49,389 nucleotides of DNA from Magnetococcales bacterium. GTDB lineage: Bacteria; Pseudomonadota; Magnetococcia; Magnetococcales; UBA8363. Below are positions 14,708 to 21,843 of the stretch, piece after piece. Where the stretch lies: NCBI GenBank assembly GCA_015232865.1, contig JADFYU010000019.1:1-49389 (forward strand), given 5' to 3'. The position numbers and the translations under genes were made by a program. The notes under the pieces were generated by a model. That model worked only from the letters and a program-made list of their open reading frames with translations, was not told the DNA's origin and searched no databases. Within the stretch, counting starts at the first letter, position 1, and the number at the start of each line of letters is the position of its first letter.

Positions 14708-14750
14708 AAGACCCGCCCAGGAAGGCAGATCCTGGGTGGGTCTTCTCTCT
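14708..14750 (+). terminator. Terminator-like hairpin between yidC and mnmE
   Basis: A 15-base stem, AAGACCCGCCCAGGA with TCCTGGGTGGGTCTT (one G-T pair), loop of seven, followed by CTCTCTGTTTT. The tail is only moderately T-rich, so it may be an RNA-stability hairpin or attenuator. It ends 28 bases before the mnmE start. Confidence 0.6.
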
Positions 14751-14771
14751 GTTTTCCAGGTTCCAGAACTC

Positions 14772-16172
14772 ATGCGCTCTCCTCTTTCCACCGATCCCAT
14801 TGCCGCACTGGCCACCCCACCCGGACGATCCGGTGTTGCCATCATTCGTATCAGCGGCGAGTCGATCTGGCAAAAAATCGCCCCCCTTTTGCGGCGGCCC
14901 AACGGTCACTCTCCCGGCCCGGAAACCCCCACCCCCCGACTGTTGCAACGATTGGATTTTCTGGAAGCAAATCGGCAGTGTCTGGATCAGGCGTTGGTGG
15001 TTTATTTTGCGGGACCGAACTCCTTTACCGGGGAAGATCTGGTTGAGATTCAAGGCCATGGTTCTCCGGTAGTCACGGCTCGGATAATGGAACGGTTGAC
15101 CGAGGTGGGCATACGACCGGCTGATCCGGGTGAGTTTTCCCGGCGGGCTTTTCTCAATGGGAAAACCGATCTGGCTCAGGCGGAAGCGTTGATGACGTTG
15201 ATCAATGCCTCCTCACTGCGGGCGGCCCGAGAGGCGGTCCGACAGATGGAGGGGGCACTTTCTGCGCGCCTGCTGGCCAACCGATCCAGACTGTTGGAAG
15301 CCTTGGCCCATTTGGAAGCCACCCTTGATTTTGCCGATGAGGATATCTCTCCCGACGATCAAAAAGCCATTGTCAGCCGTTTGATTGCCAGCTCTGAAGA
15401 TTTGGGAAAATTGGTCCGGGGTGCGATGTTGGGACGACAGTTGGCCGAAGGGTTTCAATTGGCCATTGTTGGCCGGCCAAACGTGGGGAAGTCCAGCCTG
15501 TTTAATCTGTTGTTGGGACAAAACCGGGCGATTGTGACCGCTCAACCCGGCACCACGCGGGATCTGTTGGAGAGCAGCCTGGAGATTCAGGGTATTCCCG
15601 TCCAATTGACCGACACCGCCGGGCTTCGGCAGACCGACGAGATTATTGAGCAGGAGGGGATTCGCCGGGCTAAAGAGCGGTTGCAAGAGGCGGATGCGGT
15701 TTTATTCTTATTGGATGCCGGAGCTGGTATTTTGCCGGAGGATCGGGATATTGCCGGTTTGATTCCGGCTGAGCGGACCTTGGTGTTGTGGAACAAAACG
15801 GATTTGCTGGGTGAAGCTCCCGTCGGCGATCTTCAAGCACTGGCGTTGCCTGAAACGGTGACCACCCATGCCATCTCCTGCAAAAGCGGCGAGGGTCTGG
15901 CGGAATTGTTGGAGAAAATCGCCGGTTATTTTGCCTCGTTACCCATCGATGGAGAGGGGAGTGTGGTGATGGTGGCCAGGCAACGGCAGGCTCTGCAAAA
16001 GAGCCTTTCCCATTTGGCTCGTGCCGAGGCGGTATTGGTGCACGGTCAAAACGAAGAGTTGGTGGCCATCTCTATCCGCGAGGCTTTGCATGAATTGGGA
16101 GAGCTGGTTGGCCAGAGCAGCCACGACGATCTGCTGGACGTCATTTTCAGTTCATTTTGTATCGGTAAATAA
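14772..16172 (+). CDS. mnmE: tRNA modification GTPase MnmE
   Basis: A 466-aa GTPase that, with MnmG, makes cmnm5U34 in tRNA. It has the N-terminal formyl-THF-binding domain (TDPIAALATPPGRSGVAIIR near the start), a G domain with GRPNVGKSSL, DTAGLR and NKTD, and the C-terminal CIGK. ATG 14772 is chosen since the family motif follows directly; the frame is open to 14736 but that start would sit inside the hairpin. The usual downstream genes (mnmG, rsmG, parAB) are absent; a minus-strand accessory operon follows after 25 bases. Confidence 0.97.
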   Translation: MRSPLSTDPIAALATPPGRSGVAIIRISGESIWQKIAPLLRRPNGHSPGPETPTPRLLQRLDFLEANRQCLDQALVVYFAGPNSFTGEDLVEIQGHGSPVVTARIMERLTEVGIRPADPGEFSRRAFLNGKTDLAQAEALMTLINASSLRAAREAVRQMEGALSARLLANRSRLLEALAHLEATLDFADEDISPDDQKAIVSRLIASSEDLGKLVRGAMLGRQLAEGFQLAIVGRPNVGKSSLFNLLLGQNRAIVTAQPGTTRDLLESSLEIQGIPVQLTDTAGLRQTDEIIEQEGIRRAKERLQEADAVLFLLDAGAGILPEDRDIAGLIPAERTLVLWNKTDLLGEAPVGDLQALALPETVTTHAISCKSGEGLAELLEKIAGYFASLPIDGEGSVVMVARQRQALQKSLSHLARAEAVLVHGQNEELVAISIREALHELGELVGQSSHDDLLDVIFSSFCIGK

Positions 16173-16197: not shown

Positions 16198-17442
16198 CTA
16201 CCAGGGTACGCTCTGACCGTTGACCAATTCCCGATTAAAACTATATCTATCCAAAAATTCAGAAACCTTGGCTAGATCCTCTTCCGTTTCGGAAATTGTA
16301 TAATAAGATAATAAAAACAGAGCGATACCCTTTGGAATAAATTCGTGTTGGTTTTTGTCCGGGTCACCAAAAATATGAATGCCCAGGGCCAACAGCTCCT
16401 GGCGTTTTTTGTAGAGCTGTTTTTCAATGTTGGCCAGAGTTTTAAACAGTTTGAAGGTGGCCAGCGATTGAAAAAGCGGTTCGGCGTTCTTAGCCTGATA
16501 CATCAATCGGGTGTTGTAGGTGTCCGAAATCAATTTATCAAAATTACGGGCCAGTTCGTTGGATAGGATAAAATCGTCCACATTTTCCAGGGTGATAAGT
16601 TCCGGAGTGGCGATCAGGGGAATGCGGGTGATTTTTTCGATAGAGGGGAGAAAAATTTTAGCGGCCGGTGTGGCGACCTTGGCGGGTGCTTCAACGGCAA
16701 GTTCTTTAACCTCAATTGTCTTTGGCGATTTTTTCGATTCGACAGCAGAAAACTCCAGGTTGCCGGATTCGGTCAAATTAAACCGGGCGCTGGCTCTTGT
16801 TTTGTTGCCCTTGATCTTATCCTGAAGAATCTCCCATTGATCCAGGTTGCCGCGTATGTTGTTCAATTCCGAATCGGCCAACTCCAGCATATAGGCCAGA
16901 TGCATATATTCACGCAGATACTCTTTGGGAAACGAGTCGGCCGAATAGCCGATATGACGTTGGATTTTTGACCAGGTATCCTGAAAAAGCGAGTAGATCT
17001 GGACTTCGATGACAAAACCGGAAAAGCGTTGATATTCATCGAGCTTGATCCGATTTTTATCCAGTTTCAAAACCAGGGCAGAACCGGGATAACCTATTTT
17101 TTCGGCATCGTCGGGATGGGGCTTGATGGCGGAATCGACCAACTCGAAGGTATCCATCAGGCAATTCAGGGCCAGGGTCACATCTTTTTCATAAAAAGTG
17201 ACCAGGCGCAAGACCATGAGATTTTTAAAATCCGACAGAATCGGGTAGCGGCCATCGGGCAGGGCGTCGATTTCCTGTCGGAGCCGATCAATGGATTTCA
17301 GATGTCCAGTGATCTGGACGACACCAATCTGCTTCTCCTTGGCGATCGATACCTGAACAAGGGACCGGAACGTATCGATGAACTCCAGATACAATACCCG
17401 GTTTTCCTTGAAATCATTTAAAGCTTCGTCACTTTTTGCCAT
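16198..17442 (-). CDS. RelA/SpoT-fold protein B, probably catalytically altered
   Basis: A 414-aa protein, third gene of a three-gene operon. The N-terminal half (about 20-200) fits a small alarmone synthetase-like fold: GHLKSIDRL (46-54), VTFYEKDVTLAL (81-92), IGYPGS (116-121), IEVQIYSLFQDTW (145-157) and ELADSELNNIR. Compared with active synthetases it keeps the Glu of ExQIRT (Glu146) but has Tyr-Ser for Arg-Thr, and the RxKD-type motif is missing. The C-terminal half (about 280-410) is shared with the neighbouring protein (IPKGIALFL) and unknown to me. It could bind nucleotides without synthesis, or be a diverged toxin-type synthetase. Start ATG 17442 has ACAGG eight bases upstream; 27 bases from the upstream gene. 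Confidence 0.75.
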   Translation of the reverse strand: MAKSDEALNDFKENRVLYLEFIDTFRSLVQVSIAKEKQIGVVQITGHLKSIDRLRQEIDALPDGRYPILSDFKNLMVLRLVTFYEKDVTLALNCLMDTFELVDSAIKPHPDDAEKIGYPGSALVLKLDKNRIKLDEYQRFSGFVIEVQIYSLFQDTWSKIQRHIGYSADSFPKEYLREYMHLAYMLELADSELNNIRGNLDQWEILQDKIKGNKTRASARFNLTESGNLEFSAVESKKSPKTIEVKELAVEAPAKVATPAAKIFLPSIEKITRIPLIATPELITLENVDDFILSNELARNFDKLISDTYNTRLMYQAKNAEPLFQSLATFKLFKTLANIEKQLYKKRQELLALGIHIFGDPDKNQHEFIPKGIALFLLSYYTISETEEDLAKVSEFLDRYSFNRELVNGQSVPW

Positions 17443-17469
17443 GCCGCAAACCTGTCTTTATCCTAGGGA

Positions 17470-18669
17470 TTAACTGCTTTTGAAGGCATTATTGACAATT
17501 GATGAGATGACATCAACCGCCTCTTTATTTTCCTTCGTATTTTGATTTTCCGCAGCCAACGCCATTGTAAAAAAGTACATTAAAATTGAGATACCGCGCG
17601 GAATGACCAACGCACTGTATTCGCTTTGGGCCTCCATCAACTCGTTGGCGTTGATAAAAATATTTTGTTCCTGGTGTTTGATTTGCTTAACCAGTTTTTC
17701 CTGGGACGAGATGCGGAAATAACTGGAAACTTCACAAAGCCGATCGATAAACTTTGCATCGAATTTAAGCCGTCCGTTAAAACCGTTGGAGATTTCCCGG
17801 TCCAGTTTAAGGATGGTACTCTCATCCAGGATGATTTTTGAGATATTTTCCGTAGACCAAAAAACGGGATCATGAAGTTCATTCTCAATCGTTGCCGATT
17901 TTTTGGTGGTATTGGCCGGTTTAATCTGTTTGATCACATCGTCAATGGTGTTGATGGGGGCCTCCAACGCCCGAACCTTATCGGAACGGGCCGGTCGCTT
18001 GACGTGATCGGCTGCGGCGGGTTCCAAAGCCGGCATCTGACCGTTTTTTCCCAGGTTCAGCGGCAGGGTTTTTCGCAGATGATTGAACTCTCGATCCGCC
18101 AGTTCGAACAGGCCGACAATTCTGGCTGTGTTGCGCAGTTGCTGTTTGGGGGTCTGTTGATTGATGCCCAAACGACCCTGAAGACTGGACCAGGTGTGTT
18201 GCAGCAGAGAGCAGACCTGAATCTTGACCTGACACTCTTCAAAGCGTCGATATTCAATCCACTCCAGGCGGGTATCCATCATGCCGATGGTAAAAAATTG
18301 CGATTGATAGCCAAAACGCAGGGGGTTGGGAGTGACCCGCTTATCGATCGCCCCTTTGAGAATTTTAAATTCCGTCTCCAAAACGTTGATGATGGCCTCG
18401 ACGTCATCTTCAAAATAGGTGATCACCTGCATGGTCACCATGTCGTCAACCTCTTTCAAAGAGCGGGCGTTCACCCCGTTGTTGACGAGATTTTGCAGAG
18501 AATCTCGGCTTTTTACCGCCCCATTATAGGAGTAGACCCCCACGGTGTTCTCACGAATGAACTCTCCGAGCAGGCGCAGGATCATCACCCGGAAGTCGTC
18601 GTAAAGCTCTCGTTTCTGGTCATACTCCAACAGAAGCTTATGATTTGAATTCTCTTGTATCTCAGCCAT
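17470..18669 (-). CDS. RelA/SpoT-fold protein A, probably catalytically dead
   Basis: A 399-aa paralogue of the next gene with the same two-part layout. Synthetase-like positions: GAVKSRDSL (50-58), VDDMVTMQVITYFEDDV (74-90), FGYQS (119-123), VKIQVCSLLQHTW (148-160), ELADREFNHLR (189-199). The catalytic Glu of ExQIRT is Lys149 and the following Arg is Cys, so (p)ppGpp synthesis is unlikely. A Lys/Pro-rich linker (about 205-260) leads to a C-terminal region ending with IPRGISILMYFF, shared with protein B. ATG 18669 starts 14 bases after the small upstream gene, implying cotranscription. Function unknown; a regulatory nucleotide sensor or a partner of protein B are the simplest ideas. Confidence 0.75.
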   Translation of the reverse strand: MAEIQENSNHKLLLEYDQKRELYDDFRVMILRLLGEFIRENTVGVYSYNGAVKSRDSLQNLVNNGVNARSLKEVDDMVTMQVITYFEDDVEAIINVLETEFKILKGAIDKRVTPNPLRFGYQSQFFTIGMMDTRLEWIEYRRFEECQVKIQVCSLLQHTWSSLQGRLGINQQTPKQQLRNTARIVGLFELADREFNHLRKTLPLNLGKNGQMPALEPAAADHVKRPARSDKVRALEAPINTIDDVIKQIKPANTTKKSATIENELHDPVFWSTENISKIILDESTILKLDREISNGFNGRLKFDAKFIDRLCEVSSYFRISSQEKLVKQIKHQEQNIFINANELMEAQSEYSALVIPRGISILMYFFTMALAAENQNTKENKEAVDVISSIVNNAFKSS

Positions 18670-18683
18670 CAGGACGCTCTATC

Positions 18684-18872
18684 TCAAGCCGACATGAATT
18701 TACGGTAATAGTAGTCAAGAATACCGTCCATCTGCCGACGTTTATCGGCATCAAAAATATCCTCTTCCACCAATCCCTCCTGGTTTAGACGGGCGATTAA
18801 CTTATGATAAACCCGAGGCATTCCTTTAAGAAGATCTAGTTTAAGCTGGGTCAGATCCGCACATTCCAACAT
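18684..18872 (-). CDS. Small protein upstream of the RelA/SpoT-fold pair
   Basis: A 62-aa protein, first gene of the operon, not recognised. It is charged, predicted helical, without a membrane segment or cysteine motif (one Cys only). ATG 18872 is chosen because AGGAG lies eight bases upstream; an in-frame TTG at 18899 would overlap that site. Its size and its place before two toxSAS-like genes resemble an antitoxin or an adaptor, but nothing in its sequence proves either. Confidence 0.65.
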   Translation of the reverse strand: MLECADLTQLKLDLLKGMPRVYHKLIARLNQEGLVEEDIFDADKRRQMDGILDYYYRKFMSA

Positions 18873-19045: not shown

Positions 19046-20695
19046 TCAAGCCATCAGTCGTTTGGTCAGGTAGAGTCGCATGGGGGCCGATTCGGTTAGC
19101 TTGTGGAAAAGGTGATGGGGGCCGGTGGCCTGATTTTTCAGGTCTTCCAGGTCATCGGAACGTTCGGAATAATAAGCCAGAAGCTTGGGATCAAAAGCGG
19201 CCAAAGCGGCGGCCAGCGGATCTTTTTCATAGCGTTCGAAGAGCGATTCTCCCTCTTCGATCAGGTTGCCCATCCAGATGTGCGCCGCCGAAAAAAGCGT
19301 CACCGATCCGTCATACCAGATCATGGGATCGATATCAAAACATTCTCCGGGTGGGGGGCCTTTCTCCAACACCTGGGTCAGGTAGGCCCGTTCGTTGATA
19401 TATTCACTGGGGTTGAGCAGAGCGGCTCGCCCGTAGGCGTCGATGCTGGAACTCATCAGAAGCAGTGGATGTTGCGGATATCCTTGAAGGGTAAACTGAA
19501 CCTCACGAATCACCCCTTTTTTTTGATCGGTCTGGATGGGGTCAACCTTGGGGCGGGGAGCGGTTTGCCACTGTATCTGTTCGATGGGGTACCCGAGACG
19601 GGACAGGGTTTTGGATAGTCGGGAGAACACACCGAAATTAAAAAGATTTTTTGAAAAATTCAGCCGGTTTTGTTTGTGCAGCAGCAGGCAGTCGATGTCG
19701 GCATGGTGCAGAGATTCAATCAAAAGATGAGCCATATTGACGACTGGAATCCGCTCTCTCAGTCGCCCATCGTCGCGGCTGAGAATCTCCTGGTGATATT
19801 CGTCAAAGCTGATTTGAAGGGAGACCTGTGCCGGACTAAAATGGCCAGGCCGGTTGTCCAGTGCTTGACGAATCGAGTCAAAAATTTGTTTGGCTTCCCA
19901 TTGACTGCCAGCGGCGGCACCGTTGAGTAAAATGGCAAAGTGTTGAATCCGATCCATCTCGCCAATGGCCCGATGCAGCTCCTTTAGATGATGGCTCAAA
20001 TCTCCACCGGTAAAAAGCAGATTTTCGGTACGTCGGTTTACACAGCGCAACAATGGAGCGGGATCGGGCAGATTTTTGAGCGGAGGTCGCCAGACAAACA
20101 TGCAGTGTCGGCAGTTTTGCGGGCAGGCCATTCGGGGTATCAGTCCCATTTTGCCAAAGCGGGAAACGGCGGCAAATCGTTTTGGCAGCGAATCGACCAA
20201 GGCCATTCTCTGGCGGTCTTCTTCGGCACCGACCGACTCTCCGATCTGTTTTTGATGGATCTGAATTTCACGGACCAAGGCCGAATGGCTGTGTTGAAAA
20301 AGGCCCGACGCCTGCCAAAGTTCCAACAGCTTTTGGCTGCCCAAATCCGTCTGGTTTTCATGGCAGCTCAACCAGGAGCCAACCGAGAGATGGTGGGGGT
20401 GTGTCGCATCGGGGTTTTGTCGCCAGTAGATCAATAAAGCCTGGATGACGTCGGAACTGTCTGAGTCGGCCAGTAGAACCGGTTGCAAGGGGTCGGGAGC
20501 CAAACCCGATAGAGAGAGCAAAATAGGCCGATAGGTTGGGGAAATCTCCCGGTGCAGCCAGTGAAACAGATAGAGGGTCTCAAGAAAAAGTGGAATATGG
20601 GCATGGGTCTGCCTGAAATGGATCAAGGCACCGTTCAACCGCTGACGCTGGTTGGTCAGGTACTCTTTTTCAAGATTGTCAGACTCAACTGTCAT
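19046..20695 (-). CDS. Radical SAM protein of unknown function
   Basis: A 549-aa protein with a central radical SAM core. The 4Fe-4S motif is C-PQN-C-RH-C (Cys191, 195, 198), followed by LLFTGGD in the place of the SAM-binding GGE. The N-terminal 180 residues and C-terminal 200 residues match no domain I know. There is no cysteine-rich C-terminal SPASM-like region. ATG 20695 overlaps the stop of the upstream glycosyltransferase gene by four bases, so the two are translationally coupled, which suggests one pathway. The substrate is unknown. The adjacent transferase type is often found near radical SAM genes. Confidence 0.8.
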   Translation of the reverse strand: MTVESDNLEKEYLTNQRQRLNGALIHFRQTHAHIPLFLETLYLFHWLHREISPTYRPILLSLSGLAPDPLQPVLLADSDSSDVIQALLIYWRQNPDATHPHHLSVGSWLSCHENQTDLGSQKLLELWQASGLFQHSHSALVREIQIHQKQIGESVGAEEDRQRMALVDSLPKRFAAVSRFGKMGLIPRMACPQNCRHCMFVWRPPLKNLPDPAPLLRCVNRRTENLLFTGGDLSHHLKELHRAIGEMDRIQHFAILLNGAAAGSQWEAKQIFDSIRQALDNRPGHFSPAQVSLQISFDEYHQEILSRDDGRLRERIPVVNMAHLLIESLHHADIDCLLLHKQNRLNFSKNLFNFGVFSRLSKTLSRLGYPIEQIQWQTAPRPKVDPIQTDQKKGVIREVQFTLQGYPQHPLLLMSSSIDAYGRAALLNPSEYINERAYLTQVLEKGPPPGECFDIDPMIWYDGSVTLFSAAHIWMGNLIEEGESLFERYEKDPLAAALAAFDPKLLAYYSERSDDLEDLKNQATGPHHLFHKLTESAPMRLYLTKRLMA

Positions 20696-21741
20696 GGCTG
20701 CCGCTGCTCGCTCCAGGCAAAATAGAGGGCGCTTGTTCTAAACCAAACCCAGGTTAACAGAGCGGTGAGTAGATCAAAGGGAAAAGAGCGGGTCAAGGGG
20801 TGAAAAACCCGGTCATGGAAGGCGAGAAAGGGTTTTTTCTGGCGACTGAACCGACTCGAAAGATGCAAATCCAGAATATAAAAAAGTTGCCAGGCCGCCT
20901 CCCGGACATATTGGCCGATCCGCCGCCAGCGACCAAAGGCGACCGCCCATCCGGCCTCTTGGTTAAGTTGATCGACGAGCTTGAAAAAGGGGGACATCTG
21001 CAAAGGCTTGGTCTGATCCTGCTGAAGATAGATCGAGGGTGCTCTGTCGAAAAAGAGCTTGAAACCGGTGTAATGAAAAGCCATGATCAGGGCATTCAAA
21101 ATCATCCGTCTGCCGAAACCCTCCTGGGTAAAGCGACGGGCGGAGGTGGTCAAAGTGCCGGGCAGGGTGATCCATTGTCCCTGCTGGTGAATCTGGGAGG
21201 CCAAAACCTGATCTTCCAAAAAGGGCAGGGACTCATCAAACCCACCCAACTGCCAAAAAAAATCCCGGTTCAATAAAAATCCCTGATCGCCATTGGTACA
21301 TTGGCGACGATTGAGAGCGGTTTTGGCTTCGTAGAAGGCGGTCAGGCTCGCTCGTTTAGTCGGAGGTTGGTCAAATTTGAGCATAAAATGGCCAGCCAGA
21401 CGACTATTTTCCCATTTTTGGCACTCTTCGTGCCAGTAGTGGATAGCCTGGATCAATAAATGGGGGTCAGGAAGAGAGGAGTCGGCATGTAGAAAGAGCA
21501 AAATCGGTTGTGTGGCCCGTTTGGCTCCGGCATTCATCTGCACTCCACGACCAAGGGGGGTCTGAATGGCGCAAACCGGCAAGCTGGCGAGTGCCTCCCA
21601 AGTCCCATCCGTAGAGCCGCCGTCGGCGATGATAATTTCCAGGCTACATCCGACCTGTTGTTGAAGTTGCCGAATCAAGCGAGGCAGATGGTTTACTTCA
21701 TTCAACGCTGGAATGATTATTGAAAGTTTGGGCTTAATCAT
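20692..21741 (-). CDS. Family 2 glycosyltransferase with C-terminal membrane segment
   Basis: A 349-aa GT-A fold transferase: LSIIIPALNEVNHLP at the start, ADGGSTDGT for the nucleotide site, and the DxD-like LHADSSLP for metal. It resembles the rSAM/selenodomain-associated transferase 2 group (TIGR04283), which uses similar GRGVQMNAGA and GDQGFLLNRDFFWQLGGF motifs. One hydrophobic segment lies near the C-terminus (about 325-340), so it may sit at the inner membrane. ATG 21741 fits the family start; an in-frame ATG at 21798 is an alternative. First gene of the pair with the radical SAM gene, divergent from the thioredoxin-like gene. Confidence 0.85.
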   Translation of the reverse strand: MIKPKLSIIIPALNEVNHLPRLIRQLQQQVGCSLEIIIADGGSTDGTWEALASLPVCAIQTPLGRGVQMNAGAKRATQPILLFLHADSSLPDPHLLIQAIHYWHEECQKWENSRLAGHFMLKFDQPPTKRASLTAFYEAKTALNRRQCTNGDQGFLLNRDFFWQLGGFDESLPFLEDQVLASQIHQQGQWITLPGTLTTSARRFTQEGFGRRMILNALIMAFHYTGFKLFFDRAPSIYLQQDQTKPLQMSPFFKLVDQLNQEAGWAVAFGRWRRIGQYVREAAWQLFYILDLHLSSRFSRQKKPFLAFHDRVFHPLTRSFPFDLLTALLTWVWFRTSALYFAWSEQRQP

Positions 21742-21843
21742 GCTATGCTGGCGAACTCCGATTGGGTCTACTCGAATCAATATTTTTTGTATAGCCATGT
21801 TTTCCGCAGTTTTTCGGGATTTTGGCCGGGCTGAGGTCAAAAA

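Follow-up and report, generated by a model that had tools for sequence, protein, structure and literature searches.

Tandem degenerate RelA/SpoT-fold proteins in Magnetococcales: a possible nucleotide-binding pseudoenzyme pair

Domains that persisted after the loss of activity have been described for the RelA/SpoT homologs (RSH), namely the HD domain of RelA and the synthetase domain of some SpoT proteins (PMC3153485). According to the same paper the RFKD motif belongs to the long Rel/SpoT proteins, its Phe being not conserved among small synthetases, and a table therein lists four RSHs for Magnetococcus, one of them an unassigned divRel. In the toxSAS FaRel2 the acceptor-nucleotide tyrosine Y128 and the ATP-site residues R64/R95 are distinct elements (PMC11782079), and pairs consisting of a catalytic subunit and a dead paralog are known from the trypanosomatid AdoMetDC and deoxyhypusine synthase (PMC5201418 and PMC3663545). 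Here we describe two adjacent genes, A and B, which encode degenerate RelA/SpoT-fold proteins and are preceded by a small gene, s, in a 49,389-nucleotide stretch of DNA from a Magnetococcales bacterium (assembly GCA_015232865.1, contig JADFYU010000019.1; hereafter the window). The explanation that we favor, to which we give somewhat less than an even chance, is that A and B form a heteromeric pseudoenzyme that has lost the ATP-donor side and may bind an acceptor-type nucleotide and regulate. Synthetase-fold proteins as well as decayed RSH domains were known already (PMC3153485); what appears to be new is that two such degenerate synthetases stand alone and side by side. Among the literature matches listed, which mostly left out subscription papers, neither a title nor the beginning of an abstract dealt with a pair of this kind in Magnetococcales.

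The three-gene run reported in the first-pass annotation was confirmed on the open reading frame (ORF) calls: s, A and B, of 62 (counted from the ATG), 399 and 414 aa, occupy 18684-18872, 17470-18669 and 16198-17442, respectively, on the (-) strand and are separated by gaps of 14 bases (s-A) and 27 bases (A-B). A synthetase-like half spanning about residues 20-200 was delimited in both A (18070-18612, (-) strand) and B (16843-17385, (-) strand) by Pfam, residue alignment and profile comparison. The C-terminal halves, about residues 270-399 of A (17470-17862, (-) strand) and 285-414 of B (16198-16590, (-) strand), were delimited by hhalign comparison with an outgroup of 14 synthetases of approximately 360 aa.

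Based on sequence and profile comparison, A and B are paralogs of the RelA/SpoT synthetase family, as had been proposed initially. Aligned with each other they are 25% identical across 393 columns (E 4e-29, two sequences compared), and the Pfam model RelA_SpoT (PF04607) matched A over its curated cut-off (E 5.2e-7) and B under it (E 1.3e-3). Profile-profile comparison with the ~360-aa synthetases yielded E 1.5e-40 over 327 columns for A and E 4.9e-34 over 333 columns for B, each E-value referring to one pair of profiles in which 13 of the 14 outside proteins were aligned (of P0021 the last 341 residues were aligned). Protein searches retrieved 10 further full-length relatives of A and 12 of B, all named organisms being Magnetococcales; the next-closest sequences were 14 proteins of 336-591 aa that matched 33-63% of the query. 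All 42 Foldseek matches of the B model at E <= 0.001 were alarmone synthetases, CapRel or Rel/SpoT proteins, the synthetase matches starting at E 2.1e-5 with RelP/RelQ as the best, although TM-scores were low and the model was poor. Assignment of both genes further relied on the residue table and the phylogenetic tree described below.

The C-terminal halves had been regarded as an additional domain of unknown nature. Comparison with the outgroup by hhalign gave probabilities of 96.3% for A (E 1.8e-9; reversed control 0.4%) and 96.0% for B (E 3.9e-9; reversed control 0.3%), using 9/14 outgroup rows and none of the 15 class III sequences, and missing 6/19 B and 3/20 class I rows (see below for classes). 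Since the matched proteins are ~360-aa synthetases with intact motifs, this region is not an extra domain and instead corresponds to the family's own C-terminal half, shared with ordinary long-form synthetases.

Catalytic residues were compared at nine positions numbered according to the outgroup protein P0012 (Arg48, Lys50, Lys58, Asp74, Arg79, Tyr120, Glu148, Gln150, and Arg152), all of which are retained in 13/14 outgroup synthetases. The changes noted earlier were found again: the Glu of the ExQ(I/V)R motif is Lys149 in A (Glu146 in B), and the Arg that follows is replaced by Cys153 in A and by Tyr150 in B. The window A retains the Asp and the tyrosine of the GY motif and has lost Arg48 and Glu148, and the window B retains Lys50, Tyr120, Glu148 and Gln150, with Asp74 replaced by Asn and Arg48 by His. 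The combination of Arg/Lys, Asp and Glu that an active small synthetase needs in one chain is therefore absent from both proteins, and loss of synthetase activity, as previously proposed, is probable judging from these residues. The lack of RxKD, which had been given as a further reason, is uninformative for A and B because small synthetases do not conserve the Phe of RFKD (PMC3153485).

Losses were consistent within the clade of the window. Among 13 B rows of this clade Arg48, Lys58, Asp74 and Arg152 were each found in 0/13, and Lys50, Arg79, Tyr120, Glu148, Gln150 and also Tyr168 in 13/13; among 11 A rows the counts were 0/11 for Glu148, 1/11 for Lys50, 10/11 for Asp74 and 11/11 for Tyr120. 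Outside the window clade (six genomes) B retained Arg48, Lys58, Asp74 and Glu148 in 5/6 each and lacked Arg152 throughout (0/6, Cys in all six), and A retained Asp74 in 6/6, Glu148 in 1/6 and Lys50 in 0/6. Catalytic loss thus affected A more than B in 5/6 genomes outside the window clade and both proteins inside it. Most of the lost residues are ones that we assign to the ATP/metal side, and Tyr120 of the GY motif is present in 17/17 A and 19/19 B rows. We take Tyr120 to be equivalent to Y128 and Arg48 to an ATP-site Arg of FaRel2, both being equated by motif.

Despite these losses A and B evolve under constraint, amino acid changes being less frequent than silent ones. The ratio of amino acid-changing to silent differences (pN/pS) was below 0.54 in all 45 comparisons, with silent sites saturated in many, and amounted to 0.03 for s, 0.36 for A and 0.19 for B in the closest pair (L001-L002). 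No internal stops were present among the 18 compared genes (six loci). Both the missing catalytic residues and the faster change of A and B relative to s would be expected of pseudogenes decaying toward loss, yet the open frames in the six compared loci, the low pN/pS and the strong conservation of non-catalytic motifs make this the least probable of the explanations that we considered.

The taxonomic distribution of the pair was determined by profile searches. The B alignment retrieved five loci from genome contigs, all from Magnetococcales and all with s-A-B in this order, an arrangement that is not due to chance given its recurrence in 5/5 loci; the search of genome contigs with A alone found no relative. 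Among 48 genomes of the class, in which absences may reflect incomplete assemblies, 38 contained a family member and 11 contained adjacent A-B pairs, which were co-oriented in 11/11 and carried s in front in five (G001-G005) and not in six (G013, G041, G044, G046, G047, G048). Gaps between A and B ranged from -4 to 58 bases across the 11 genomes and the window, these values as well as gene lengths in relatives being approximate because gene starts were set to the first ATG/GTG/TTG. Pairwise identities of A and of B correlated at 0.96 over 12 pairs and the A and B subtrees were alike, which shows that A and B are co-inherited and does not speak to contact between them. Scanning 398 genomes of the phylum with the A profile gave 44 genomes with matches, i.e., the same 38 and six others, in which simple patterns detected the Asp motif in 5/6 and the ExQxR motif in 5/6. 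None of the matches in phage records (3, for B) or plasmid records (13, for A) covered 80% of the query.

The losses mainly on the ATP/metal side together with the retained GY tyrosine favor a heteromeric pseudoenzyme with a possible acceptor-type ligand, and the role in alarmone sensing suggested earlier is supported as a possibility. According to this scenario a small alarmone synthetase gene would have been duplicated in the Magnetococcales lineage, giving rise to A and B, whose products may bind each other as two subunits. In the older pairs (G013, G041, G044, G047, G048), which would resemble enzyme-prozyme pairs, B may be catalytic and A dead and regulatory, and in the window clade the independent gene s would have become the first cistron. 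The A-B complex would make no alarmone and could still bind a guanine nucleotide, an alarmone or a tRNA end on the acceptor side, the bound state possibly being passed via the shared C-terminal halves to some target.

Several points limit the pseudoenzyme interpretation. The predicted structures, which speak neither for nor against it, were of low confidence, with predicted local distance difference test (pLDDT) values of 42.8 for B (13 sequences) and 39.5 for A (11 sequences), and the poor A model had no Foldseek match at E <= 0.001 (its 16 top-ranked non-significant matches were small synthetases, best E 0.18). In G046 the pattern is reversed, A having both Asp74 and Glu148 and B neither, so that A is not dead in every pair. 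The order of losses was read from present-day sequences. Retention of Tyr120 could be structural. Lastly, some odd activity is possible as the Asp (in A) and the Glu (in B) survive in separate chains, and it is from this last point that a rival explanation starts, in which B alone or a composite A-B site, with the Asp from A and the Glu from B, still makes alarmone or pyrophosphorylates another acceptor. Both acids are indeed encoded across the two chains in 12/12 pairs, B being near intact in 5/12, but in solved small synthetases the active site lies within one chain and the window-clade B proteins lack the four positions Arg48, Lys58, Asp74 and Arg152 in all 13 rows, wherefore we consider a remaining catalyst distinctly unlikely.

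A structural or adaptor pair, in which the retained synthetase fold provides only a scaffold for protein contacts and binds no nucleotide, is a more serious rival, which we nevertheless regard as rather unlikely. Donor-side residues are lost from both A and B, and a further degenerate class of the family (class III, see below) lacks the GY tyrosine (0/15) and several other positions, yet similar genes persist in many genomes, and thus the fold can survive without either site. The invariant Tyr120 of A and B and the complete conservation of Glu148, Gln150 and Tyr168 in the window-clade B proteins (13/13) speak against a mere scaffold.

The A-B pair was placed among its relatives in a phylogenetic tree of 88 rows, from which L164 (two pieces), L179 (fragment) and the duplicate P0003 had been dropped. 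Branches with 100/100 support separated each of A (17 rows), B (19), class III (15), class IV (2) and the outgroup (14), and the 73 rows of the class, presumably Magnetococcia judging from locus titles and database names, were likewise split from the outgroup at 100/100. Class I, which has intact motifs, requires two changes on this tree (20 rows, on which all class I counts are based; L160 of G030 was missed by the simple ORF caller). All nine tested positions were present in 20/20 class I rows, and His124 in 5/20. A single gene of G005 (L073) with intact motifs groups with the outgroup. The A-B pair belongs to a radiation, represented in 38/48 genomes, that includes other degenerate lineages. 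Class III is degenerate, with Lys50 and Tyr120 in 0/15 each and Asp74 in 1/15; one class III gene, L164 (G002), is broken by an in-frame stop, due to either decay or assembly error. The divRel listed for Magnetococcus is perhaps a class I member. As a side observation, each of the five genomes G001-G005 (L038-L042) has a ~723-733-aa Rel-like frame and a further one of 635-671 aa that RelA_SpoT matches above the cut-off.

The genomic context of these other classes was analyzed as well. Class III genes lie directly beside a gene for a phosphate-type ATP-binding cassette (ABC) ATPase in 7/17 loci, which are L165 (G029), L167 (G028), L168 (G031), L169 (G030), L173 (G037), L176 (G034) and L179 (G032). 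NCBIfam models identified PstC and PstA over the cut-off in L168, followed by two tandem PstB-like proteins under it, and PhoU over the cut-off in L173, where a low-molecular-weight phosphatase-like domain is nearby. Class IV genes (L071:7469-8722 in G004 and L072:317-1522 in G003) are directly upstream of dnaG-rpoD in 2/2 loci (named by NCBIfam in L072). Class I genes directly follow a gene for an NtrX-type regulator in 6/20 loci (L151, L155, L156, L157, L158, L161; named in L157), with NtrY- and LpxC-type genes before NtrX, and are near a Ppx/GppA-type gene in 3/20 loci (named in L146).

A wider proposal, possible in our view though doubtful, is that a Magnetococcales synthetase may have turned into non-catalytic nucleotide or alarmone receptors that were wired into operons, comprising A-B, the pst class and the dnaG-rpoD class, with A-B as a receptor of two chains that each keep a different catalytic acid. 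If true, dead stand-alone relatives of synthetases, paired and radiated in one class, would represent an enzyme-to-receptor route in stringent-response signaling. Class I with intact motifs, the older A-B pairs with one near-intact and one dead protein, and the window A-B with both decayed would be the members of a stepwise series, and the pst-phoU and dnaG-rpoD neighbors of the other degenerate classes suggest which processes may be involved.

The co-occurrence of A-B with the small gene that had been described initially was observed, in one clade only according to the neighbor survey: s, which encodes a conserved protein, is the first gene of the run in the window clade and nowhere else. Its start was taken at the ATG because similarity in relatives begins there, although the ORF list also has a frame of 71 aa that begins at TTG 18899. 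Homologs with 73-81% identity precede A-B in 5/5 loci. In total s was found in 22/48 genomes of the class, in five of which (G001-G005) it is beside A-B and in 13 of which there is no A-B pair at all. Of the genomes in which an A-B pair has no adjoining s (6/11), three have s elsewhere (G041, G044, G048), G013 has a weak match elsewhere (E 1.3e-5, 31% identity), and G046 and G047 have none; in G044 the contig ends just past s and the A-B pair is on a separate contig. Database searches with s gave 28 matches including that of the window itself, the named organisms being Magnetococcales, Magnetococcus or Magnetaquicoccaceae. Because s is present without A-B and A-B without an adjoining s, the two are separate units that were joined in one clade, and s is an independent neighbor and not a dedicated partner of A-B. 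In two genomes a second, divergent copy of s is present on the same contig (L056 in G033 and L059 in G027).

These results bear on the resemblance to toxSAS loci noted in the first-pass annotation, which would make A-B a toxin-antitoxin or phage-defense module with s as the antitoxin. A small gene just upstream at operon spacing, the presence of s-A-B together in 6/6 window-clade loci and the weak similarity of A to PDC-S33 in PADLOC (E 0.0016) fit such a module. Against it stand the 13 genomes with s and no A-B, the five loci where s follows a ~550-aa gene without A-B, the 6/11 A-B pairs lacking an adjoining s, the loss of catalytic residues, and the fact that intact relatives match PDC-S33 better, with the similarity falling in the synthetase part. 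The YXXY motif of pseudo-zinc-finger antitoxins (tRNA-targeting type) does not occur in the window s; it was found in 5/24 aligned s proteins, none of them from the window clade. Considering also the housekeeping context and the co-inheritance of A and B, we judge a toxin-antitoxin or defense function highly improbable.

Directly upstream of s lies a gene for a 549-aa, weakly radical-SAM-like protein (19046-20695, (-) strand; Pfam Radical_SAM E 0.0036, below cut-off), which is itself preceded by a family-2 glycosyltransferase gene (20692-21840; Pfam and ORF list). Members of this ~550-aa family (F4) are directly before s in 10 relatives, five with A-B and five without; in the latter (G041, G043, G044, G045, G048) the order is glycosyltransferase, ~550-aa gene and s. 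In the other 14 loci of relatives, drawn from 12 genomes of which two hold two copies, s has different neighbors. No Pfam match was obtained for the ~550-aa protein in two relatives, and in L001 its gene is split into two frames. A radical SAM enzyme acting on s as the precursor of a ribosomally synthesized and post-translationally modified peptide (RiPP) was considered and is not favored, given the weak radical-SAM likeness of the ~550-aa protein and the absence of its gene directly upstream of s in 14/24 relative loci. Between the ~550-aa gene and s no RNA element was detected, ARAGORN reporting 0 genes and Rfam one sub-threshold match located elsewhere. On the other side of the run mnmE (14736-16172, (+) strand; Pfam MnmE_helical and TrmE_N) is convergent with B and outside the run, and more distant window genes are yidC, rnpA, the peptide deformylase gene def, a lytic transglycosylase gene and a gene for an SRP54-type GTPase, presumably FtsY; s-A-B is thus surrounded by housekeeping genes (mnmE, yidC, rnpA, def, SRP54-type GTPase). 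That mnmE beside B represents ancestral synteny, as a clustered gene abutting class I genes in L148 and L149 had suggested, was rejected, the gene in L149 being Der.

Among described systems the long-form small alarmone synthetases (~360 aa; P0012-P0023, P0037, P0038), which were the nearest relatives outside Magnetococcales in our searches and which, bearing no subgroup name, would fall under divRel, the published name for unassigned RSHs, have the two-part architecture in common with A and B. They keep the nine positions (13/14), in contrast to the degenerate proteins of the tandem A-B pair. RelP/RelQ (SAS2/SAS1: YwaC, YjbM) share the synthetase fold, being the best Foldseek matches of the B model and weak matches in sequence, and differ from A and B, which possess an extra half and do not unite Asp and Glu in one chain. 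The toxSAS systems (FaRel2:ATfaRel2, CapRel SJ46) are similar in that a small gene adjoins a synthetase-fold gene, and CapRel is among the B-model matches; unlike these, the A-B locus lacks an intact catalytic site, has in s no dedicated partner and lies among housekeeping genes. Decayed RSH domains known so far sit inside long RSHs, whereas A and B are stand-alone paired proteins. The enzyme-prozyme pairs consist of unrelated proteins and resemble the older A-B pairs as proposed here, while in the window clade both subunits are decayed. Adjacent co-inherited paralogs of which one is degenerate were found in 11/11 genomes with the pair and in the window, where both members are degenerate.

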